Source of the DNA: Magnetovibrio sp.
Lineage (GTDB): Bacteria; Pseudomonadota; Alphaproteobacteria; Rhodospirillales; Magnetovibrionaceae
Assembly (NCBI RefSeq): GCF_036568125.1
Contig: NZ_DATCTF010000009.1
Location: 1 to 64,000 of the forward strand
Direction of reading: 5' to 3'
DNA length: 64,000 nt
The notes beneath the pieces are model-generated. The model was given only the letters and a program-made list of their open reading frames with translations. It was not told the origin of the DNA and made no database searches. How positions within the stretch are numbered: the first letter of the stretch is position 1; each line of letters begins with the position of its first letter. Positions 6,049-47,377 of this stretch are shown piece by piece. The position numbers and the translations under genes were made by a program.

Positions 6049-6090
6049 CTAATATACACACAGAATCCATTTAGACAAACCTAATATACA
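6049..6090. promoter_or_regulatory. Two direct CTAATATACA repeats upstream of the soxT-like gene
   Basis: CTAATATACA occurs at 6049-6058 and again at 6081-6090, a 32-bp period of about three helical turns, in the roughly 475-bp divergent region between DsrE2 (start 5750) and the permease (start 6226). A close variant, CTAATATAAG, lies at 15149-15158 in front of the arsR-type repressor gene. The spacing and recurrence suggest an operator, perhaps for that repressor. The rest of the gap is AT-rich with no gene visible. Confidence 0.45.
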
Positions 6091-7346: not shown

Positions 7347-7400
7347 TATTAGGGAAAACCCTAATAAGGGCAGAAAAGCGGGGTTTATCCCCGCTTTTTT
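7347..7400 (+). terminator. Terminator after the soxT-like gene with an upstream TATTAGGG palindrome
   Basis: AAAAGCGGGG (7374-7383) pairs with CCCCGCTTTT (7389-7398), followed by further T residues: a strong intrinsic terminator. Directly before it, TATTAGGG (7347-7354) and CCCTAATA (7359-7366) form a perfect 8-bp inverted repeat containing the CTAATA element seen in other gaps of this island. Confidence 0.85.
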
Positions 7401-7731
7401 CTTTTTAATAAATGCGATTTTGTGTGTCTGAGGGCTTGCCACGAGGATGAAAGCTCTCTAATGTAACAGAGTGCTAATACACAGCACATTCATGGGTAAT
7501 TAAAATATGACCCATGTTTTTCGGTACGAATGCGTGTTCAATGTATTTTCTACGCTTAAAAGATAGAAACAACACGCGTTTGGGAGGCCTACAACCAATT
7601 CAAGTCCTTTATTTTGATAATTGGGCTTGTTCTATCCGAGACCTAGCTATTAGGCTTGTCTCAGTTCCCCTTGTCGTTCGAGGGATGATATTGGGAAACT
7701 GGTCGATTCTGGCTAGTCTATGGGAGGGATA
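7401..7731. promoter_or_regulatory. Upstream region of soxX with inverted repeats
   Basis: About 330 bp with no gene. Two inverted repeats stand out: GTGC (7471-7474) with GCAC (7484-7487) around a CTAATACA element, and CATGGGT (7491-7497) with ACCCATG (7510-7516) separated by 12 AT-rich bases. Such sites fit operators controlling the soxXYZA transcript. I could not settle on a -10/-35 pair. Confidence 0.4.
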
Positions 7732-8184
7732 ATGAAACACACTAAACTGATGAGCGCCTTTTTCGGTCTTACGCTCGCCGGCACCATCGCCGCGTCCGCG
7801 CAAGCTGAAGAAATGGCGCAATACAGCATCGTCGACGATTCCATTCCGGCTTCTTTGACCGGAAAAGCTGGCGATGCAGCCAACGGCAAAAAAGTCGTCA
7901 TCAACCGCAAAAAAGGCAACTGCCTCGCTTGCCATGTGATGCCGATCCCCGAAGAGCAGTTCCACGGAAAAACCGGCCCCGACTTGGCTGGCGTGGCGCA
8001 GCGCTTGGACGAAGCCACGCTGCGCATGCGTATTGTTGACCCCAAAGTCATCAATCATGGCACCATGATGCCGAGCTTCTACAAAACCGATCAGCATCGT
8101 GTGCTCAAGAAGTTCCAAGGCAAAACGATTTTGAGCGCTCAGGAAGTCGAAGATGTCGTCGCCTACCTGATGACGCTGAACTAA
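7732..8184 (+). CDS. soxX: SoxX, monoheme c-type cytochrome subunit of SoxAX
   Basis: A 150-residue periplasmic cytochrome. A signal peptide (MKHTKLMSAFFGLTLAGTIAASAQA) is followed by a single haem motif CLACH near residue 61 and a likely distal Met in NHGTMMPSFYKTD. The end, LSAQEVEDVVAYLMTLN, is typical of SoxX. With SoxA it forms the cytochrome that oxidatively couples thiosulfate to SoxYZ. I start at the ATG at 7732, preceded by GGGAGG; the ATG at 7720 lies upstream of that ribosome site. It is the first gene of soxXYZA. Confidence 0.95.
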   Translation: MKHTKLMSAFFGLTLAGTIAASAQAEEMAQYSIVDDSIPASLTGKAGDAANGKKVVINRKKGNCLACHVMPIPEEQFHGKTGPDLAGVAQRLDEATLRMRIVDPKVINHGTMMPSFYKTDQHRVLKKFQGKTILSAQEVEDVVAYLMTLN

Positions 8185-8230: not shown

Positions 8231-8701
8231 ATGAGCAAAAACATCCAGCAAATGGTCCGTTTGGACCGCCGCGAGGCTCTTAAAGCCGCAGGTGCAGGTG
8301 TGTTGGCTCTGGGTTTCGCTACGACTGCCCATGCCACACCCGAAGCCGCTGCAGAAGCGCTTTCCAAGGCTACCGGTGGCGCTTCCGCTACCGCATCTGA
8401 CAAAGTCTCCATCTCTCTTCCGGAAATCGCCGAAAACGGCGCCACCGTCCCTGTGGGCGTTGTCGTCGACAGCCCGATGACCCCGGACAACTATGTCAAG
8501 CACATCCACGTGTTTGCCGAGGGCAATCCGAGCCCTGAGACCATTTCCTTCCACCTGACCCCGACCGGTAAAGCCGATGTGAATACGCGTATTCGTTTGG
8601 GCAAGACCCAAAACGTCGTGGTCGCCGCCGTCATGAGCGACGGTTCGGTCTTGACCGGTACGAAGGAAGTGAAAGTCACCATCGGCGGTTGCGGCGGCTG
8701 A
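8231..8701 (+). CDS. soxY: SoxY, sulfur-carrier subunit of SoxYZ
   Basis: A 156-residue protein with a Tat-type signal (DRREALKAAGAGVLALGFA) and the obligatory C-terminal swinging arm ending VTIGGCGG. The Cys two residues from the end carries thiosulfate-derived sulfur through the Sox cycle. The central domain (ENGATVPVGVVVDSPM, then HIHVFAEGNPSPE) is the SoxY immunoglobulin-like fold. Tat export fits its folding with SoxZ, which has no signal of its own. A GAGG lies just before the ATG. It is in tandem with soxX and soxZ. Confidence 0.97.
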   Translation: MSKNIQQMVRLDRREALKAAGAGVLALGFATTAHATPEAAAEALSKATGGASATASDKVSISLPEIAENGATVPVGVVVDSPMTPDNYVKHIHVFAEGNPSPETISFHLTPTGKADVNTRIRLGKTQNVVVAAVMSDGSVLTGTKEVKVTIGGCGG

Positions 8702-8750: not shown

Positions 8751-9074
8751 ATGGCAAAAAAACCTCGCGTAAAGCTGCCGAACAAGGCAAAAGCGGGCGA
8801 TATGATCCAGGTCAAAACCCTGGCCGCCCACGACATGGAAACCGGCAACCGGAAAGACAAAAAAGGCAATAAAATTCCGCGCCTTATCCTGAATAAGTTC
8901 ACCTGCACCTTTAACGGCGCAGACGTGTTCAGCGCAGACATGCATCCGTCCGTTTCCGCCAACCCGTACATTTCTTTCTTCATCACGGCGAAGGAAAGCG
9001 GCACGTACGAGTTCAAATGGACCGACGATAACGGTGAAGTCACCACTGTGTCTCAAGACATGGCCGTGTCTTAA
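8751..9074 (+). CDS. soxZ: SoxZ, partner subunit of SoxYZ
   Basis: A 107-residue protein without a signal peptide, expected to be co-exported with Tat-dependent SoxY. It shows the SoxZ pattern: an N-terminal PRVKLPNKAKAGDMIQVKTLAAHDMETG, the conserved IPRLILNKFTCTFNG, and FFITAKESGTYEFKWTDDNG. The heterodimer presents the SoxY arm to SoxAX and SoxB. It starts 49 bp after soxY and is followed 26 bp later by soxA. An AGGAG lies about 10 bases before the ATG. Confidence 0.97.
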   Translation: MAKKPRVKLPNKAKAGDMIQVKTLAAHDMETGNRKDKKGNKIPRLILNKFTCTFNGADVFSADMHPSVSANPYISFFITAKESGTYEFKWTDDNGEVTTVSQDMAVS

Positions 9075-9100: not shown

Positions 9101-9955
9101 ATGAGTTTCAAGACAATCACCGCCGCTATTGCTGTGTTGGGTGCGGGTCTCGCGCTGGGCGCATGTAACGGCGCCAACACCACCGCAAAGCAACTCGATC
9201 AGGTGCCAAACCCTTATGGGGATAATGTTTGGTCCGGTTACAAAACGGCAACCGCGGAAACCCGCGCCATGCAGGATGACGATTTCGAAAATCCTGGCAT
9301 GCCGGTTTATGATGCCGCAGAAGGCATCTACAACGCCGCCGCAGGCGAAGCCGGCGTTTCGTGCGCCGATTGCCACGGCGCCGTCGACGATGCAACGGGT
9401 GGCCGCTTCGGCATCCCGATGAAAGGCGTCGCCGCCAACTACCCGGTGTACGATGCGGAAGATCACAAGCCGATCAACGTGGAGCTGCGCATCAACAAGT
9501 GCCGCACCAAGTACCAAAAGGCCGATCCGTTCAAATATGAATCGGACGCCATGCTCGGTATGACCGGTTTGATCGCCAAACAGTCGCGTGGCATGCCGCG
9601 CATGACCACGGCGGATTCCAAAACCGATGCGCTGAACCCGTTCTGGAAAACGGGCGAAGCCTTCTATTACCAGCGTCGCGGTCAGCTCGACATGGCTTGC
9701 AGCCACTGTCATGAAGACAACGCCGGTAACATGGTGCGCGCCGAAGTTCTGTCCCAAGGTCAGTCCAACGGCTTCCCGCTGTATCGCCTGAAATGGCAAA
9801 AGCCGGGTTCCTTGCACCGCCGCTTCCGCGGTTGCAACTCCAACATTCGCGCGGAACCTTATGGTTACGGTTCGGATGAATACCTTGCGCTGGAAACCTA
9901 TCTGGCGTGGCGTGGCCGTGGTCTTCCCATGGAAGCACCGGCTGTACGTAAATAA
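9101..9955 (+). CDS. soxA: SoxA, diheme c-type cytochrome subunit of SoxAX
   Basis: A 284-residue exported cytochrome. It has two haem motifs, CADCH near residue 88 and CSHCH near residue 200, making it the diheme form. The active-site cysteine in RGCNSNIRAEPYGYG (about residue 244) is the persulfide-bearing haem ligand of SoxA. The signal sequence ends LALGACNGAN; that LGAC resembles a weak lipobox, so membrane anchoring is possible. SoxAX joins thiosulfate to SoxY. GGGAGG lies upstream of the ATG. A strong hairpin after the stop separates it from soxB. Confidence 0.97.
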   Translation: MSFKTITAAIAVLGAGLALGACNGANTTAKQLDQVPNPYGDNVWSGYKTATAETRAMQDDDFENPGMPVYDAAEGIYNAAAGEAGVSCADCHGAVDDATGGRFGIPMKGVAANYPVYDAEDHKPINVELRINKCRTKYQKADPFKYESDAMLGMTGLIAKQSRGMPRMTTADSKTDALNPFWKTGEAFYYQRRGQLDMACSHCHEDNAGNMVRAEVLSQGQSNGFPLYRLKWQKPGSLHRRFRGCNSNIRAEPYGYGSDEYLALETYLAWRGRGLPMEAPAVRK

Positions 9956-10075: not shown

Positions 10076-11764
10076 ATGATTACCCGTCGCGATTTCCTTC
10101 AGGTGACCGCCGCCACCGCGGCGCTGCTTGGTTCCGGCGTCAGCATTGCGCGCGCGGCATCCAGTCAGGCTATCACCCAGGATGACCTTCTCAAGTTTGA
10201 CAGCGTCGGCCAAGTCACGTTGCTCAATTTCACAGACATTCACGCCCAATTGGTGCCGCTGTATTTCCGCGAGCCGTCGGTCAACCTGGGCGTCGGCGAA
10301 GTGCACGGCCTGCCGCCGCACCTGACCGGTGAAGCGTTCCTCAAGAATTTCGGCCTGATGGCGGGTACGCCGGACGCTTACGCGTTCTCGAGCGTCGATT
10401 ACAGCCAACTGGCCAACGAATACGGCCGCATCGGCGGCTTGGCGCACATGGCGACATTGATCAAAGCGATCCGCGCCCAACGCGAACCCAACACCCTGTT
10501 GATCGATTGCGGCGACACTTGGCAAGGTTCCTACACCTCGCTGGCGAACCAAGGCGAAGACATGGTCGACGCCATGAACGCGCTGGGCGTGGACGTGATG
10601 GTGCCGCACTGGGAATTCACCTACGGCGCCGACCGCGTGCAGGAATTGATCGGCAAGCTGAACTTCCCGTTCCTGGCCGGCAACGTGTTGGACAACGAAT
10701 GGCAGGAAAAGGTCTTCGATTCGACCGCGCATTTCGAGCGCGGCGGCGTCAAAATCGCCGTGATCGGCCAAGCCTTCCCCTACACCCCGGTGGCCAACCC
10801 GCGCTACATGATCCCCGACTGGTCGTTCGGCATCCGCGACGAAATGGTCCAGGAAAGCGTCAACAAGGCCCGCGCCGAGGGTGCGGAACTGGTGGTTCTG
10901 GCGTCGCACAACGGCTTCGACGTGGACCGCAAGCTGGCATCGCGCGTCAACGGCATCGACGTGATCTTGACCGGCCACACCCATGACGCCATTCCCGGCG
11001 TGATCGAAGTGAACAACACGCTGTTGGTCGCCACCGGTTCGCACGGCAAGTTCCTGGGCCGCTTGGACCTCGACGTGCAGAACGGCAAGGTCAAGAACTA
11101 CAACTACAAACTGATGCCCATTTTCTCCGACGTGATCGCGCCGGACCCGGAAATTCAGGCAGTTGTGGACGGCATCCGCGCCCCGCATCAAAAGATCATC
11201 GGCGAAAAACTCGGCAAGACCGAGAGCCTGCTGTATCGCCGCGGCAACTTCAACGGCACCTTCGACGACCTGATCTGCAACGCGATTATGGAAGAACGCG
11301 AAACGCAAATCGCGCTGTCACCGGGCTTCCGCTGGGGCGCGACGCTCATTCCGGGCCAAGACATCACCGTTGACGATGTCTACACCCAGACCTCGATCAC
11401 CTACCCCAACACCTATCGCAGCGAAATGACCGGCGAGACCCTCAAGCTGATCTTGGAAGACGTTGCCGACAACCTGTTCAATCCCGATCCCTATTACCAA
11501 CAGGGCGGCGACATGGTGCGCGTCGGCGGCATGGGCTATCGCATCGATATCCACAAGACGATCGGCTCACGCATTTCCGAAATGACCTTGCTGTCGACGG
11601 GCGAAACCATCGACCCGAGCAAAAAGTATGTGGTCGGCGGTTGGGCGTCCGTCAACGAAGGCACCGAAGGCCCGCCGGTCTACGACCTCGTATCCGACTA
11701 CATTCGCAAGAAAAAAGTCGTCAATGTGCAGCCGAACACCAGCATCAAGGTTGTCGGGGCCTAA
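10076..11764 (+). CDS. soxB: SoxB, dimanganese thiosulfohydrolase
   Basis: A 562-residue periplasmic enzyme that hydrolyses the terminal sulfone from SoxY-bound thiosulfate to give sulfate. A Tat signal (TRRDFLQVTAATAALLGSG) comes first. The 5'-nucleotidase-like metallophosphoesterase motifs follow: NFTDIHAQ, LLIDCGDTWQGS, VVLASHNGFD and ILTGHTHDA, with metal-binding Asp, His and Asn in place. The C-terminal 5'-nucleotidase domain covers about residues 370-555. The ATG at 10076 has GGAG nine bases upstream. soxV follows closely. Confidence 0.97.
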   Translation: MITRRDFLQVTAATAALLGSGVSIARAASSQAITQDDLLKFDSVGQVTLLNFTDIHAQLVPLYFREPSVNLGVGEVHGLPPHLTGEAFLKNFGLMAGTPDAYAFSSVDYSQLANEYGRIGGLAHMATLIKAIRAQREPNTLLIDCGDTWQGSYTSLANQGEDMVDAMNALGVDVMVPHWEFTYGADRVQELIGKLNFPFLAGNVLDNEWQEKVFDSTAHFERGGVKIAVIGQAFPYTPVANPRYMIPDWSFGIRDEMVQESVNKARAEGAELVVLASHNGFDVDRKLASRVNGIDVILTGHTHDAIPGVIEVNNTLLVATGSHGKFLGRLDLDVQNGKVKNYNYKLMPIFSDVIAPDPEIQAVVDGIRAPHQKIIGEKLGKTESLLYRRGNFNGTFDDLICNAIMEERETQIALSPGFRWGATLIPGQDITVDDVYTQTSITYPNTYRSEMTGETLKLILEDVADNLFNPDPYYQQGGDMVRVGGMGYRIDIHKTIGSRISEMTLLSTGETIDPSKKYVVGGWASVNEGTEGPPVYDLVSDYIRKKKVVNVQPNTSIKVVGA

Positions 11765-11794: not shown

Positions 11795-12538
11795 ATGGAT
11801 CCGTTTGACATCACCTATTGGGGCTCATTCGGCGCCGGCGTGCTCAGCTTCGCCTCGCCGTGCGTTCTGCCTCTGATCCCTGCCTACTTGTGCTTTCTCG
11901 GCGGCGCATCGCTTGAGGAGCTGACCGCCGAGGGCGGTGTCGACAAGCAGGTCCAACGCCAAGTGTTCGTCTCGGCGCTGGCGTTCGTGCTTGGCTTCGC
12001 CACCGTGTTCGTGATCCTCGGCGCGACGGCCACCACGGTCAGCGCCTTGATCGCGGACAACATCGACATCCTCGCCAAGATCGCCGGTGTGATCATCGTC
12101 GTCTTTGGCCTGCACTACATGGGGCTGTTCAAGATCGGTTTCCTGAACTTCGAAAAACGCTTCCACCTGGAAAACAAGCCCGCCGGCCTGGCCGGGTCTT
12201 ACATCCTGGGGCTGGCCTTCGCGTTCGGTTGGACGCCGTGCGTGGGGCCGATCTTGGCGACCATCTTGATGGTCGCAGCAAGCGGCGACGACGTCATGTA
12301 CGGGACCTCTTTGCTGGCTGTCTATGCGGCGGGCATCGGTTTGCCGTTCTTGCTGGCGGCGTTTGCGGTGAAGCCGTTCATGATCTTCCTCGGCAAGTTC
12401 CGCCGCCATATGCGCACCGTGGAAATCGCCATCGGCACGTTGTTGGTGGTCACCGGCGTGGCGATCTTCACCGGATCGCTGTCAGAAGTCTCAAACTGGT
12501 TGCTGGAAACCTTCCCGAGCTTTGGAGAGGTCGGCTAA
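11795..12538 (+). CDS. soxV: SoxV/CcdA-family thiol-electron transporter
   Basis: A 247-residue membrane protein of the CcdA/DsbD-beta family with about six transmembrane helices. The paired redox motifs are visible: ASPCVLPLIPAYLCFLGG near residue 18 and FGWTPCVGPI near 148. It moves reducing equivalents from cytoplasmic thioredoxin across the membrane. Next to soxB, and with two periplasmic thioredoxins (SoxS, SoxW) in the same island, it matches SoxV, which supplies electrons to keep Sox cysteines reduced. A role in cytochrome c maturation cannot be excluded. Confidence 0.9.
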   Translation: MDPFDITYWGSFGAGVLSFASPCVLPLIPAYLCFLGGASLEELTAEGGVDKQVQRQVFVSALAFVLGFATVFVILGATATTVSALIADNIDILAKIAGVIIVVFGLHYMGLFKIGFLNFEKRFHLENKPAGLAGSYILGLAFAFGWTPCVGPILATILMVAASGDDVMYGTSLLAVYAAGIGLPFLLAAFAVKPFMIFLGKFRRHMRTVEIAIGTLLVVTGVAIFTGSLSEVSNWLLETFPSFGEVG

Positions 12539-13791: not shown

Positions 13792-14472
13792 TCAAAGGTC
13801 TGCTGGAAGGTCTTTGGGCAAATCATCGGCGTACAAATCGTAATGCACGCCCATCTCGTCCAGCTTGTTGCCGATGCCACTCAACCAGCGCTGAAAGCTC
13901 GGCTCAGTCTCGTATCCGCCGGTTTTGGCGTAGCGCAGCAAGAAGTAGAAATGAAACGGCTTGAAGTAGCCGGGGATGCGCACAACCTCGCCATCCACAC
14001 CGGACTTACCGGCCATAGCCTGACCCGACGTGGGGAAAAACTGCAAGGTCGGCGTGAACATCACCCGCCATTTGTTGGCGAGGTCCTTTTCCTTGAGCAC
14101 TTCGCCGTCGAAGTCGGTGACCTCGCGATCCCCCCACAAATTCAGCTGGATGACCATGAAGTCCTTTTTCATCGCCTCGACCACGCGGGGAATGCGCAAG
14201 TTCACCTCGTGCATCTTTTTGCAGTACGGACAACCGCGTTGTTCCCAAACAATCATCAGGCGTTTGCCCTGAGCTTCGGCGTCGCCGATATCTTCTTTTA
14301 AATCGAGAAAACTTTGATGGAACCACGGCTGCATGTGCAGGCCGTCTTCGCTGATTTCACTGGGCGGCAACAGGTGATCATTGGCACGGGCGGGAGTTGC
14401 CGTCGCAAACCCCAAGCTCACGGCCATCAACACCCCAAAAATCACGCGCAACGCCTTGCTCGATACAAACAT
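13792..14472 (-). CDS. soxW: Periplasmic thioredoxin-like protein SoxW
   Basis: A 226-residue exported thioredoxin-fold protein. A signal peptide ends ATPARAND. The active site CPYC lies in QRGCPYCKKMHEVNL near residue 82, and the cis-Pro in MFTPTLQFFP near 143. The length and the sequence GKRLMIVWEQRGCPYC fit SoxW, the sox-linked periplasmic thioredoxin reduced by SoxV. The region after residue 165 (YFKPFHFYFLLRYAKTGGYE) is also typical. It lies 47 bp from the hydrolase gene and 68 bp from the DsrE-like gene on the same strand. Confidence 0.85.
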   Translation of the reverse strand: MFVSSKALRVIFGVLMAVSLGFATATPARANDHLLPPSEISEDGLHMQPWFHQSFLDLKEDIGDAEAQGKRLMIVWEQRGCPYCKKMHEVNLRIPRVVEAMKKDFMVIQLNLWGDREVTDFDGEVLKEKDLANKWRVMFTPTLQFFPTSGQAMAGKSGVDGEVVRIPGYFKPFHFYFLLRYAKTGGYETEPSFQRWLSGIGNKLDEMGVHYDLYADDLPKDLPADL

Positions 14473-14987: not shown

Positions 14988-15137
14988 CAGGGCTTCCTAC
15001 GACGATGGATTTGCCACAGTCTACTGCGGAATGCGCCATACCTGAACAGATTTCGAATGTTAAAAGGCCCTATTCGCAAGGCGCTCTTACGCAATCGCCA
15101 TGGCAACCAATGTACACTCGCCTTGAGGACAGACTAC

Positions 15138-15170
15138 TTGACATTTTCCTAATATAAGATGTATCTAATC
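15138..15170 (+). promoter_or_regulatory. Candidate promoter/operator of the ArsR-type regulator
   Basis: A consensus TTGACA (15138-15143) lies 18 bp from TATCTA (15162-15167), a weak -10. CTAATATAAG (15149-15158), the element found upstream of the soxT-like gene, sits in the spacer, and a second CTAATC follows at 15165. A repressor bound there would block RNA polymerase, consistent with autoregulation. Not experimentally shown. Confidence 0.45.
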
Positions 15171-15196
15171 AAGGCAGAAACCAAAGTGAGGTCGCC

Positions 15197-15520
15197 GTGA
15201 ATTTAGACATGAAGCTAGAAGAGATGGAAGGCAACGCTCAAGCTGCGAGCGAACTGCTCAAGGCGATGAGCAATCAAACGCGCCTGATGATTCTCTGTCA
15301 GTTGCTACATGGCGAAAAGACGGCCGGTGAACTTGACTCGGCGACCAGCCTGTCCCAGTCGGCTTTGTCCCAACACCTTGCGGTCCTGCGCGAACACGGC
15401 TTGGTGCAAACGCGCCGTGAATCGCAAAATATCTTCTACTCGCTCGACGGCGACAAACCCAAAGCCATCATCGAAGTTCTCTATCGGTTGTTCCACAGCG
15501 GCGACGCCAGCTGCGCTTGA
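15197..15520 (+). CDS. soxR: ArsR-family transcriptional repressor (SoxR/BigR/SqrR-like)
   Basis: A 107-residue winged-helix protein: NQTRLMILCQLL, recognition helix LSQSALSQHLAVLREHGLV, then wing RRESQNIFYSLDG. It resembles the persulfide-responsive BigR/SqrR group and the sox-locus repressor SoxR. Cys34 (LMILC) matches the first redox cysteine of BigR. The second usual cysteine position, in the helix after the wing, is His100 here; the only other Cys is Cys106 in the tail. The start is a GTG at 15197 with GAGG five bases upstream. It diverges from the DsrE/soxW group and precedes the TauE/SafE genes, and probably controls much of this island. Confidence 0.85.
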   Translation: MNLDMKLEEMEGNAQAASELLKAMSNQTRLMILCQLLHGEKTAGELDSATSLSQSALSQHLAVLREHGLVQTRRESQNIFYSLDGDKPKAIIEVLYRLFHSGDASCA

Positions 15521-15556
15521 CAATTGATCACCTGATAATTTATTAGGTTATCGATT

Positions 15557-15716
15557 GGCTTTTCCAAGCCCCCCAATTCATTACCCCCCCTGCTCCGCAC
15601 AGTCGTGGAGCCAAGTCGCGAAACCTGCCGTTGCCACTACCGGTGGGTCTTTGGTTCTCTCAGGTTATCCGCATATTCCACCTATGCGTGGACTGATCTT
15701 GTCAGCCCCAACCTGA
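15557..15716 (+). ncRNA. Structured 5' leader A (candidate cis-regulatory RNA) of the first TauE/SafE gene
   Basis: The roughly 275-nt leader contains a GGCTT/AAGCC hairpin (15557-15570) and a core beginning CCAAGTCGCGAAACC at 15611. In that core ACCTGCCG (15623-15630) can pair with CGGTGGGT (15641-15648), an 8-bp stem with two G-U pairs. A closed module follows: TCAGGTT (15660-15666) with AACCTGA (15710-15716), enclosing CGCAT/ATGCG and CTGA/TCAG hairpins. The 5' hairpin and the core recur before the next TauE/SafE gene. Conservation between paralogous leaders argues for an RNA element. It may belong to an alphaproteobacterial motif reported before sulfate/sulfite transporters (sul1), but I cannot confirm that. 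Confidence 0.6.
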
Positions 15717-15797
15717 ATCAAGGTCCACTTATGCGACTACGACACTTTTTGTTCGGCTTGATGCGAAACCCAGTTTGGACGCGTTGAGACCACAATC

Positions 15798-16706
15798 ATG
15801 CAAGTTTACCTGCCCATCGGGGAAATCTCGGTCAACATTTTCGTGCTGCTCGGCATCGGTGGCGGGATCGGCTTTTTGTCCGGTCTGTTCGGCGTGGGCG
15901 GCGGGTTTCTGCTCACGCCGCTGCTGATCTTCATCGGCATCCCACCGGCCGTTGCTGTGGGCACCGGTGCAAACCAAATCGTCGCCTCATCGATTTCCGG
16001 AGTCTTGGCGCATTTCAAACGCGGCACCGTCGATGTCAAAATGGGCGTCATGCTGCTGATCGGCGGCATACTCGGTTCCGGTGTCGGGGTTTGGCTGTTC
16101 ACCCTGTTGCGTGCGCAAGGCCAGGTCGATCTGGTGATCAAGCTGACCTACGTGTTCTTCCTCGGCGCCATTGGCCTGCTGATGTTTATCGAAAGCGTCG
16201 GTGCGTTGGTGCGCACCAAGCGGCGCGCCACGCCCAAACGGCGCACCCACAACGCCTTGACGGGCCTGCCGTTCAAGATGCGTTTTCGCCGTTCGCTGCT
16301 GTACATTTCCGCCCTGCTGCCCCTGGGCGTCGGCTTCGTGGTCGGAATTTTGACCGCTATCATGGGGGTCGGCGGTGGCTTCATCATGGTCCCGGCGATG
16401 ATTTATCTGCTCGGCATGCCCACAGCCGTGGTCGTCGGCACCTCGCTGTTTCAGATTATCTTCGTCACCACCAACGTCACAGTCTTGCAGGCGATCAACA
16501 ATTTCGCGGTCGACATTCCCTTGGCGCTGCTGCTGTTAGTGGGCGGTGTGATCGGTGCGCAATTCGGTTCGCGCGCTAGCACCAAGATGAACGGCGAACA
16601 ACTGCGCGTTCTGCTCGCGCTGATGGTTTTGGGAGTGTGTTTCAAGATCGCCCTCGAACTGACTTTACCGCCTGCGGACATCTACGTCCTGGGAACCATG
16701 AAATAA
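15798..16706 (+). CDS. TauE/SafE-family sulfite/sulfonate exporter (copy 1)
   Basis: A 302-residue membrane permease with about eight hydrophobic segments. The family's duplicated Gly-rich motifs are clear: GGGIGFLSGLFGVGGGFLLTPLLIF at the start of the first half and ILTAIMGVGGGFIMVPAMIY in the second. A basic cytoplasmic loop (TKRRATPKRRTHN) lies between the halves. TauE/SafE proteins export sulfite or organosulfur anions; in a Sox cluster the likely role is removing sulfite or sulfate. About 80% of its residues look the same as the next gene, so the two are recent tandem paralogues. Substrate is inferred. Confidence 0.88.
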   Translation: MQVYLPIGEISVNIFVLLGIGGGIGFLSGLFGVGGGFLLTPLLIFIGIPPAVAVGTGANQIVASSISGVLAHFKRGTVDVKMGVMLLIGGILGSGVGVWLFTLLRAQGQVDLVIKLTYVFFLGAIGLLMFIESVGALVRTKRRATPKRRTHNALTGLPFKMRFRRSLLYISALLPLGVGFVVGILTAIMGVGGGFIMVPAMIYLLGMPTAVVVGTSLFQIIFVTTNVTVLQAINNFAVDIPLALLLLVGGVIGAQFGSRASTKMNGEQLRVLLALMVLGVCFKIALELTLPPADIYVLGTMK

Positions 16707-16786
16707 GCCGTTTTGTGCATTAAACATTCTAAAATACCGAGCAACCCTCTGAATTGGAAATTTTCTGCCACAATCTCAACTAATGC

Positions 16787-16815
16787 TTGACATATTTGGC
16801 CACAATCATTAGAAG
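16787..16815 (+). promoter_or_regulatory. Candidate promoter before leader B
   Basis: TTGACA (16787-16792) is 17 bp from TAGAAG (16810-16815, four of six -10 bases). It lies just upstream of leader B, so the second TauE/SafE gene may have its own promoter. A CTAATATT element follows at 16819. Confidence 0.4.
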
Positions 16816-16832
16816 CCACTAATATTCGCTGC

Positions 16833-16983
16833 AGGCTTTTTCAAGCCTCCCCGATCAAAACAACTCATTGACCGGCCATTAGGCGGGTCCAAGTCGCGAA
16901 ACCTGCCGTTACCATTATCCGGTGGGCCCGTATGCTTCTTACATTCCATTGTAAGAACATCTTTTTTTTGTAAGATCTGGGCC
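16833..16983 (+). ncRNA. Structured 5' leader B (candidate cis-regulatory RNA) with a possible terminator switch
   Basis: This leader repeats the plan of leader A: an AGGCTT/AAGCCT hairpin (16833-16848), then the core from 16889 with CCTGCCG (16902-16908) pairing to CGGTGGG (16920-16926). Downstream, TTCTTAC (16936-16942) pairs with GTAAGAA (16951-16957), followed by eight T residues (16962-16969): a terminator. A second GTAAGA (16970-16975) and GGGCC (16979-16983) could instead pair with TCTTAC and GGCCC, breaking the terminator. GGCCC overlaps the end of the core stem, so the core and the alternative pairing compete. This is riboswitch-like architecture inferred by eye. Confidence 0.6.
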
Positions 16984-17044
16984 TCTCAACGACATTCGTA
17001 TCTCGGCTTGTTGTACGAGAAACCAAACACGTCGAGGCGCTGAG

Positions 17045-17959
17045 ATGCAAATTTATCTCCCTATCGCTGAAGTCTCGGTCAACATCTTCCTCATCCTCGG
17101 CATGGGGGGCGGTGTCGGCTTCCTCTCGGGGTTATTTGGTGTCGGCGGTGGATTTTTGATGACTCCTTTGCTGATCTTTATCGGCATCCCCCCCGCCGTG
17201 GCGGTTGGCACCGAAGCCAACCAGATCGTCGCATCCTCCATTTCCGGTGTTCTGGCGCACTTCAAGCGCGGCAACGTCGATATAAAAATGGGCGTGATGT
17301 TGTTGATCGGCGGTGTGCTCGGCTCGACCTTCGGCGTGTGGCTGTTTACGTTCTTGAAGACTTTGGGTCAAATCGACCTGGTCATTAAGTTATCGTACGT
17401 GATCTTCCTTGGCATCATCGGCTCGTTGATGTTCATCGAAAGCCTCAACTCGATGCGCGCATCGAAAAAGGCCGCGCCGCCCAAGCGTCGCCAACACAAT
17501 TTCCTGCATGCGCTGCCGTTCAAGGTGCGCTTCCGCCGCTCCAAGCTCTATATCTCCGCCATTCTGCCCATCGGCGTCGGCATCGTAGTCGGTATCCTGT
17601 CTGCCATCATGGGTGTCGGCGGCGGCTTCGTCATGGTTCCGGCGATGATTTACCTGCTTGGCATGCCCACCGCGGTGGTTGTCGGCACCTCGCTGTTCCA
17701 GATCATCTTCGTGACCGCCAACGTCACGGTGCTGCAAGCCGTCAACAACTATGCGGTCGACGTCGTGTTGGCGCTGTTGCTGTTGATCGGCGGCGTGATC
17801 GGGGCCCAATTCGGCGCCCGCGCCGGCGCGAAGCTCAAAGGTGAGCAGTTGCGCGTGCTGCTGGCGCTGATGGTCCTCGGCGTGTGCGTCAAGATCGGCC
17901 TCGACCTGACCCTGACGCCCAACGATATTTACGCCCTCGGCACCACGGGAGGACATTGA
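17045..17959 (+). CDS. TauE/SafE-family sulfite/sulfonate exporter (copy 2)
   Basis: A 304-residue paralogue of the preceding permease with the same topology and motifs (GGGVGFLSGLFGVGGGF and ILSAIMGVGGGFVMVPAMIY). The most divergent part is the central basic loop (SKKAAPPKRRQHN). The start at 17045 aligns exactly with the copy 1 start (MQIYLPIAEVSVNIF versus MQVYLPIGEISVNIF). The stop is followed two bases later by the next gene, so it is cotranscribed with the TIGR02186 protein. Two copies, each behind its own leader RNA, suggest separate control or dosage. Confidence 0.88.
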   Translation: MQIYLPIAEVSVNIFLILGMGGGVGFLSGLFGVGGGFLMTPLLIFIGIPPAVAVGTEANQIVASSISGVLAHFKRGNVDIKMGVMLLIGGVLGSTFGVWLFTFLKTLGQIDLVIKLSYVIFLGIIGSLMFIESLNSMRASKKAAPPKRRQHNFLHALPFKVRFRRSKLYISAILPIGVGIVVGILSAIMGVGGGFVMVPAMIYLLGMPTAVVVGTSLFQIIFVTANVTVLQAVNNYAVDVVLALLLLIGGVIGAQFGARAGAKLKGEQLRVLLALMVLGVCVKIGLDLTLTPNDIYALGTTGGH

Positions 17960-22582: not shown

Positions 22583-22640
22583 GGGTGATTATCCTTTCGT
22601 ACCCAACGTACTCAGCCCCTGCCCCACAGAGGCCATCATC

Positions 22641-22836
22641 ACACAGGCAGGTCTCCTGGCTCACGGATCGCGGCCTTCTTGCACCTTCCCAAAGCTCAAG
22701 GCTTCAGTGGCTTAACGCAAGTCGGCTACCGTTAACAGTTGCGTGGGCAGCCACGGATCAGGACCCGTCGAGGTCATCCCTACCGTGTTCCCTTTTCATC
22801 CAGCAAGCTTCGCTCGCTTGGAACCTGTGCGGCTTC
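22641..22836 (-). ncRNA. Cobalamin (B12) riboswitch
   Basis: On the minus strand the leader of cbiM contains the hallmark B12 box AAGCCACTG, followed by a GGGAAGG segment (near 22683-22715) and the 3' signature GAGCCAGGAGACCTGCCTG (about 22646-22664). Upstream are GGTTCC and GGGAACACGGT elements and the TAGGGATGACC region. The arrangement and spacing match the canonical class. It lies about 60 nt before the cbiM start, so control of translation or transcription of that gene is expected. Confidence 0.92.
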
Positions 22837-22879
22837 ATTTTTGACAGTTAATCATAGCGCTGACAACCCTTTGAATGGG

Positions 22880-46999: not shown

Positions 47000-47377
47000 G
47001 GATCGCTCCTCAGTCCCAAAGAAGCATGCCGCTCCACCGCCTCGTTCCCCAGCTCCCCCCGGAGCACGCCCATACGGGTAGGTTTCAAACAGATCTACCA
47101 GCTTTAGGGACTGAATGTAAAGAACTATACCTACCCGCAGTGCAGCAATTCAACTAACACGCTGATAAGTATGAATTTATATATTACAAAAACGTGATGA
47201 ACTGCCACACTTTTGAGTTATATCCGGACCATTTTGAGTACTTTTCGACCTGAATCCGTTTACCCACCCGCTCAAAATCATCTTTAGACGCGATATGGGT
47301 GAAAAAGCGGGTAGGTCCGAGGGCGAAAACATCGCCCTCGGACCCTTGAAAATCCCAAATTTCCGGCTTTGTCGGCC
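47000..47377. promoter_or_regulatory. Upstream region of the LuxR-type gene with repeated CGGGTAGGT
   Basis: About 378 bp without a gene. CGGGTAGGT occurs at 47075-47083 and 47308-47316, and its complement ACCTACCCG at 47129-47137, so the first pair is inverted around 45 bp. A perfect 13-bp hairpin, GGTCCGAGGGCGA with TCGCCCTCGGACC (47314-47344), lies just after the tetraheme gene's stop and likely ends that transcript, though it lacks a clear U-tract. Confidence 0.45.

Follow-up and report, generated by a model that had tools for sequence, protein, structure and literature searches.

Upstream of sulfur transporters in Alphaproteobacteria, a candidate leader RNA named sul1 (RF03058) is known, reportedly from a 2017 NAR paper. 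We know of no described sulfite riboswitch, and none is named in the open-access literature that we searched. At the protein level, the part of PMC10451225 consulted here describes a SoxR-type protein of Hyphomicrobium denitrificans that senses sulfane sulfur, and names TauE as the probable route of sulfite excretion. In the 64,000-nucleotide stretch of Magnetovibrio sp. DNA that we analysed (the window), two tandem tauE genes each stand behind a copy of a leader element that is probably, as we judge it, a structured cis-acting RNA. Like the sul1 RNA, it is a leader RNA candidate of an alphaproteobacterial sulfur transporter, but the sul1 covariance model fails to match the Magnetovibrio leaders. 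It shares with riboswitches and other cis-regulatory RNAs of 5' leaders a short conserved fold, a frozen and mostly unpaired core and an attachment to one transporter gene only, and differs from them in being a candidate with a range of one genus in the genomes searched. As in the SoxR/SqrR/BigR systems (compared with the consulted part of PMC10451225), the sox genes here lie near the gene of an ArsR-type repressor that has two conserved cysteines; those systems control transcription through a protein, and a leader RNA would add a second level to this.

The window carries a sox thiosulfate-oxidation cluster in which soxX, soxY, soxZ, soxA and soxB each exceed the NCBIfam cut-off (Table 1). The earlier note had proposed a tandem pair of TauE/SafE exporters, and the two adjacent genes confirm it, with products scoring 171.5 and 177.1 bits against a PF01925 cut-off of 32.6; the tauE2 protein is 95% identical to the TauE protein of Magnetovibrio blakemorei MV-1. 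An Alph_Pro_TM gene and then a Usp gene lie 3' of tauE2, TIGR02186 staying below its own cut-off at the former (186.3 versus 255.25). The repressor obtains its best E-value with the BigR NCBIfam equivalog NF040642, at 89.9 bits and below the cut-off of 155, and structures have been solved for relatives such as 3pqj (biofilm growth-associated repressor) and HlyU. C34 and C106 are invariant in all three aligned Magnetovibrio repressor sequences, their equivalence to Cys50 and Cys116 (consulted part of PMC10451225) being judged by place and without an alignment. Elsewhere in the window, a strong and ordinary cobalamin riboswitch occupies 22629-22843 on the minus strand (111.9 bits), and a weak miRNA-family match at 47302-47363 on both strands (30.8 and 25.1 bits versus a gathering score of 87) is taken as a chance match to a palindromic stretch.

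Table 1. Positions in the window of the genes, leader parts and predicted control sites.
Feature	Position	Strand	Remarks
soxX	7720-8184		NCBIfam cut-off exceeded
soxY	8231-8701		NCBIfam cut-off exceeded
soxZ	8751-9074		NCBIfam cut-off exceeded
soxA	9101-9955		NCBIfam cut-off exceeded
soxB	10076-11764		NCBIfam cut-off exceeded
DsbD-family membrane gene	at 11795		after soxB
Thioredoxin-like gene	at 13792	minus	
Operator-like palindrome ATAAG-N6-CTAAT, one mismatch, 5' of repressor gene	15154-15169	.	candidate, from sequence only
ArsR-family repressor gene, SoxR/SqrR/BigR kind	15197-15520	+	107 aa; C34 and C106; PF01022, 1.2e-14
Possible promoter of leader 1: TTGACA, 17 bases, TTATTA	15517-15545	+	by eye; weak second hexamer
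P1 hairpin GGCTT/AAGCC, leader 1	15557-15570	+	by eye missing from MV-1 and NORP328
P2 hairpin, leader 1	15592-15611	+	7 of 8 consensus pairs; compensatory changes across four leaders
Linker AAGTCGCGAAACC, leader 1	15613-15625	+	invariant in all four leaders; final two bases belong to P3
P3 hairpin CCTGCCG/CGGTGGG, leader 1	15624-15647	+	alignment of four leaders
tauE1, TauE/SafE exporter	15798-16706	+	302 aa; PF01925, E 3.1e-50
Predicted promoter of leader 2: TTGACA, 17 bases, TAGAAG	16787-16815	+	by eye
Operator-like palindrome ATTAGAAGCCACTAAT over predicted -10 of leader 2	16808-16823	.	candidate, from sequence only
P1 hairpin, leader 2	16834-16847	+	by eye missing from MV-1 and NORP328
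P2 hairpin, leader 2	16870-16889	+	7 of 8 consensus pairs; one G-G mismatch
Linker AAGTCGCGAAACC, leader 2	16891-16903	+	identical in 4 of 4 leaders
P3 hairpin CCTGCCG/CGGTGGG, leader 2	16902-16926	+	
tauE2, TauE/SafE exporter	17045-17959	+	304 aa; PF01925, E 6.2e-52

Both tauE leaders have the same order of parts: the hairpin P2, the 13-nucleotide linker AAGTCGCGAAACC and the hairpin P3. The letters of CCAAGTCGCGAAACCTGCCGTT are identical in leaders 1 and 2, CCGGTGGG follows the loop in both, and the genome contains just two copies of the 20-mer CCAAGTCGCGAAACCTGCCG, the sole other place within three mismatches of it (three mismatches, minus strand) lying on another contig. The common core that the earlier note had pointed out is thus present, its 13-mers starting 1278 bases apart, with the stem CCTGCCG/CGGTGGG kept in both copies; as had also been said, the rest of the leaders has diverged, to 55% identity outside the 13-mer (108 of 197 aligned columns). 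P2, which was absent from that account, lies directly 5' of the linker and bears every double change; it reads GCTCCGC/GTGGAGC in leader 1 and GACC-GCC/GGC-GGTC, with one mismatch between, in leader 2. The element recurs in MV-1 and in Magnetovibrio sp. NORP328, in each case in a leader directly behind the same repressor gene and before an orthologous tauE. The hairpin GGCTT/AAGCC (P1) exists as described in both window leaders and is missing by eye from those of NORP328 and MV-1; found in only two of four leaders, it was rejected as a conserved hairpin. P3 of MV-1 has one extra base, which shifts the frame (by eye) and makes a leader peptide across the core unlikely. A second conserved patch, ANGAC ... 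CGGCTT, lies about 40 bases before the tauE start (15738-15775 and 16988-17022 in the window, and the leaders on L076 and L093), and in three of the four leaders it appears by eye to form a small hairpin around GCTT with changing stem letters.

We then compared the four leaders of three species (the two of the window, MV-1 and NORP328), the same sequences from which P2 and P3 were drawn, and found covarying stem changes in P2: four of its eight pairs have changes on both sides, against none of the seven in P3. Taken together the two helices hold four double-change pairs in 15, compared to zero or one when the partners are slid by one to three columns, and 94.9% of their 59 cells are paired, compared to 19-54% in the slid controls. 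Letter shuffles matched the real value in 2 of 500 cases for cells paired and in 6 of 500 for the covariation score; the count of double-change pairs (matched by 39 of 500) and that of pair types (110 of 500) are weak measures. Covariation in P3 is almost nil, five of its seven pairs having constant letters and one being a G-U pair in all four leaders. Broken pairs amount to one P2 pair each in leaders 1 and 2 and one P3 pair in MV-1, and the P2 hairpins of MV-1 and NORP328 closely resemble one another, with TCAGTCTT.GGACTG in both.

RNAalifold run on the P2-P3 block recovered exactly these two helices unaided, and the consensus energy was matched by none of 1000 column shuffles for the block and by none of 300 for the whole leader. 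In the block the plus strand reaches -21.7 kcal/mol (z -5.69) versus -18.5 kcal/mol (z -4.36) for the minus strand, and in the whole leader the minus strand is slightly better (z -6.03 versus -5.37 for plus); we take the plus strand to be favoured because of the block scores and the G-U pair common to all four leaders, the whole leader not being used for this. Folded alone, the two window leaders are unremarkable (z -1.50 and -0.26), and in whole-leader folding neither P2 nor P3 is dominant in MV-1 and P3 is not dominant in NORP328. The fold signal is from comparison only, not from single-leader folding.

The conserved letters might instead be the DNA site of a second transcription factor inside the transcribed leader, as the TCGCGA palindrome that can be read in the linker, the conservation at the level of letters and the DNA-binding repressor gene already at the locus would allow. 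A DNA site, however, has no need of P2 letters that change yet keep their pairing or of plus-strand G-U pairs, and we consider this reading distinctly improbable. In these four leaders the candidate RNA shares two traits with riboswitches: a conserved fold with compensatory change, and a core of unpaired or junction positions invariant at 13 of 13. Long-range helices gave no signal with P2 and P3 masked (z 0.05, equalled by 238 of 500 shuffles), and the candidates AAGCC:GGCTT and GTCG:CGAC, proposed by eye and by RNAalifold, are unsupported at this z and have low pairing probability, except for the GTCG of leader 1, where the partner is a different CGAC. The same long-range pairs would join the element to the ribosome-binding region and were proposed for an expression platform exclusive with the core fold; they are no better than shuffles. 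A conserved U-run is absent 3' of P3, and an intrinsic terminator after P3 was rejected, with one weak match in leader 1 and two matches in 15100-17100 versus 2.6 expected.

Across all six pairwise comparisons the linker is identical at 13 of 13 positions, and the other leader columns are 45-61% identical. For tauE, dS is 0.89-1.93 and identity at 4-fold sites 0.49-0.63 (NORP328 from 162 codons only), so that the synonymous sites are near saturation while the linker is frozen. A recent duplication of leader and gene as DNA, with no function of its own, would fit copies that stand in tandem, each before a tauE copy, but is extremely improbable: tauE1 and tauE2 have a dS of 1.20 and a 4-fold-site identity of 0.51, their leaders agree at 55% and their linkers at 13 of 13, and the element is also present in two other species. 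The duplicated RNA of the earlier note holds as an old duplication and fails as a recent one. NORP328 has two pieces of tauE, located on two contigs, and by eye they disagree in the residues where they overlap, which makes an old tandem tauE pair in the genus Magnetovibrio likely; the leader of the second copy is outside its contig, and a single NORP328 leader was compared.

Every copy of the element that we found precedes a TauE exporter gene. A gapped pattern derived from the two window leaders (GTCGCGAAACC, GCCG, CGGTGG) matched, in 317 genomes of the order, the window genome twice, the two congeners once each and G241 once, the last without a similar flank or hairpin by eye. Because the pattern was derived from the window, the congener matches are a largely independent confirmation, MV-1 having been known before the pattern was designed and its extra base allowed for. 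In an 84,980-species collection the pattern found 24 loci, the window's own genome not among them. On these loci and L058, a covariance model (R1) gave two Magnetovibrio leaders 75.4 and 63.3 bits and the next locus 23.5; R1 was built from those two leaders and the window copies, so the high scores follow by construction and the informative result is that nothing else comes near the scores of the four training leaders. With stricter filters, R1 scored the window copies at 76 bits and all else in 385 genomes of the class at 25.2 bits or less (92 of the 385 genomes gave at least one match with E no higher than 0.05, and letters were inspected at 29 of these loci). On either strand of 28 loci with tauE homologues of relatives, R1 found nothing above 12.2 bits. 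Spread beyond the genus was thus found neither by the pattern (317 order genomes, 84,980 species) nor by R1 (385 class genomes).

Among 18 genomes of the family, the element occurs only in the window genome, NORP328 and MV-1, the other 15 reaching at most 20.2 bits; in other genera of the family, tauE is present and the motif lacking in ten genomes, several of them incomplete. Within Magnetovibrio, the motif goes with this tauE (E <= 1e-40): the three genomes that carry the gene have it, and the three that lack the gene do not. G003 keeps soxB and the repressor gene and has no tauE behind the latter and no motif; it also contains the exact 13-mer, but without the P3 letters. Because a reversed control pattern matches four of six genomes, finding the 13-mer alone carries no weight as evidence. 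The G005 contig stops a short way past soxB, which places the locus outside the visible sequence. Viral contigs gave no match to the exact 19-mer of the window, a search blind to the forms of NORP328 and MV-1. In G009, which belongs to another genus of the family, the tauE leader (L012:1329-1500) has CCTGCCG and CCGGTGG behind a hairpin and no linker; R1 does not match it, and these letters are possibly chance or a diverged form.

The earlier note had suggested that the element may belong to sul1, and the shared context of alphaproteobacterial sulfur-transport leaders would speak for this. Even at E up to 10, however, RF03058 does not match the leaders, and its best match in the whole genome is 18.3 bits on another contig versus a gathering score of 36.2, leaving membership with practically no likelihood. 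No family of the 4227 in Rfam 15 reaches its gathering score in the leaders, and the only three matches at relaxed E (5.9-8.5) all lie inside tauE1 on the minus strand. We found no description of such a leader in the open-access literature searched, and a term search of PMC2864571 returned no mention of sul1, TauE, sulfite or sulfate. The element would thus be an uncatalogued, genus-restricted candidate cis-regulatory RNA, a well-founded candidate and not an established class.

Upstream of the element, promoters of both leaders can be proposed by eye, and a consensus promoter scan reports neither; arrangements like that of leader 2 can be made out by eye in the leaders of NORP328, G006, G049 and G050. 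The predicted starts lie about 40-50 bases 5' of P2, which would put the element in the 5' portion of the mRNA. Besides the palindrome over the predicted -10 of leader 2, palindromes with zero or one mismatch occur upstream of tauE in NORP328 and at L012, L015, L017, L019 and L023; leader 1 has no full ATTAG-N6-CTAAT palindrome. NORP328 has the same palindrome letters as the window upstream of its repressor gene. Two further operator-like palindromes are found in the window, TTTAGACAAACCTAAT at 6070-6085 before a TsuA/YeeE-like transporter gene and ATTAGGGAAAACCCTAAT, with an 8-base spacer, at 7348-7365 between that gene and soxX. The placement of these putative operators suggests one repressor for the importer, the sox genes and the exporters.

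We consider it probable that a structured cis-regulatory RNA, restricted to the genus, acts after a SoxR-type transcriptional switch. The neighbouring SoxR/SqrR-type repressor would switch transcription of the sox-linked exporters at ATTAG-N6-CTAAT palindromes; each tauE mRNA would begin with P2, the mostly unpaired linker AAGUCGCGAAACC and P3, and the leader RNA would then act on the finished leader as a second, post-initiation layer of control. The step acted on is most likely translation or mRNA stability, because P3 lacks a conserved U-run. From its position, the RNA would control sulfur-anion export, as first suggested, and conservation in two other species with compensatory changes in P2 supports the claim of a cis-acting structured RNA in both tandem exporter leaders.

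A 5' structure whose sole role is to protect the mRNA or to fix translation at a constant level, sensing no signal, would suit predicted starts at this distance from P2 and the lack of support for a conserved switch partner. It leaves unexplained why a mostly unpaired 13-nucleotide linker stays invariant across near-saturated synonymous divergence, and we regard it as unlikely. In the regulatory RNA that we prefer, the invariant linker most likely serves recognition, its partner being either a small molecule or ion with a link to sulfur oxidation, or else a protein or small RNA; given a structured cis-acting RNA, we hold sensing of a small molecule and binding of a protein or small RNA to be about equally likely. 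The latter, which forms half of our best explanation and which we put forward tentatively, has the hairpins only presenting the linker to an RNA-binding protein or trans-acting small RNA, with no metabolite sensed. It agrees with an invariant part that is a mostly unpaired 13-mer and with the lack of support for a switching helix. The exact 13-mer occurs in the genome twice in forward and never in reverse orientation, and nowhere else, so there is no fully complementary small RNA; pairing of a small RNA over a shorter stretch is possible. A specific form of the former, a new class of riboswitch restricted in the searches to Magnetovibrio, in which the invariant AAGUCGCGAAACC core binds sulfite, thiosulfate or another sulfur-oxidation product and switches TauE synthesis in series with SoxR, is a rather improbable refinement.

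The locus thus offers an uncatalogued candidate for a structured leader RNA. It belongs to a single gene and to a genus of which the type strain has been isolated. Since that strain, Magnetovibrio blakemorei MV-1, is described as an isolate in the consulted part of PMC10305379, the leader RNA is directly testable. If the proposed arrangement is correct, an RNA and a sulfane-sulfur repressor would act in series on one exporter. Should the RNA sense a sulfur oxyanion, it would be, to our knowledge, the first such sensor.
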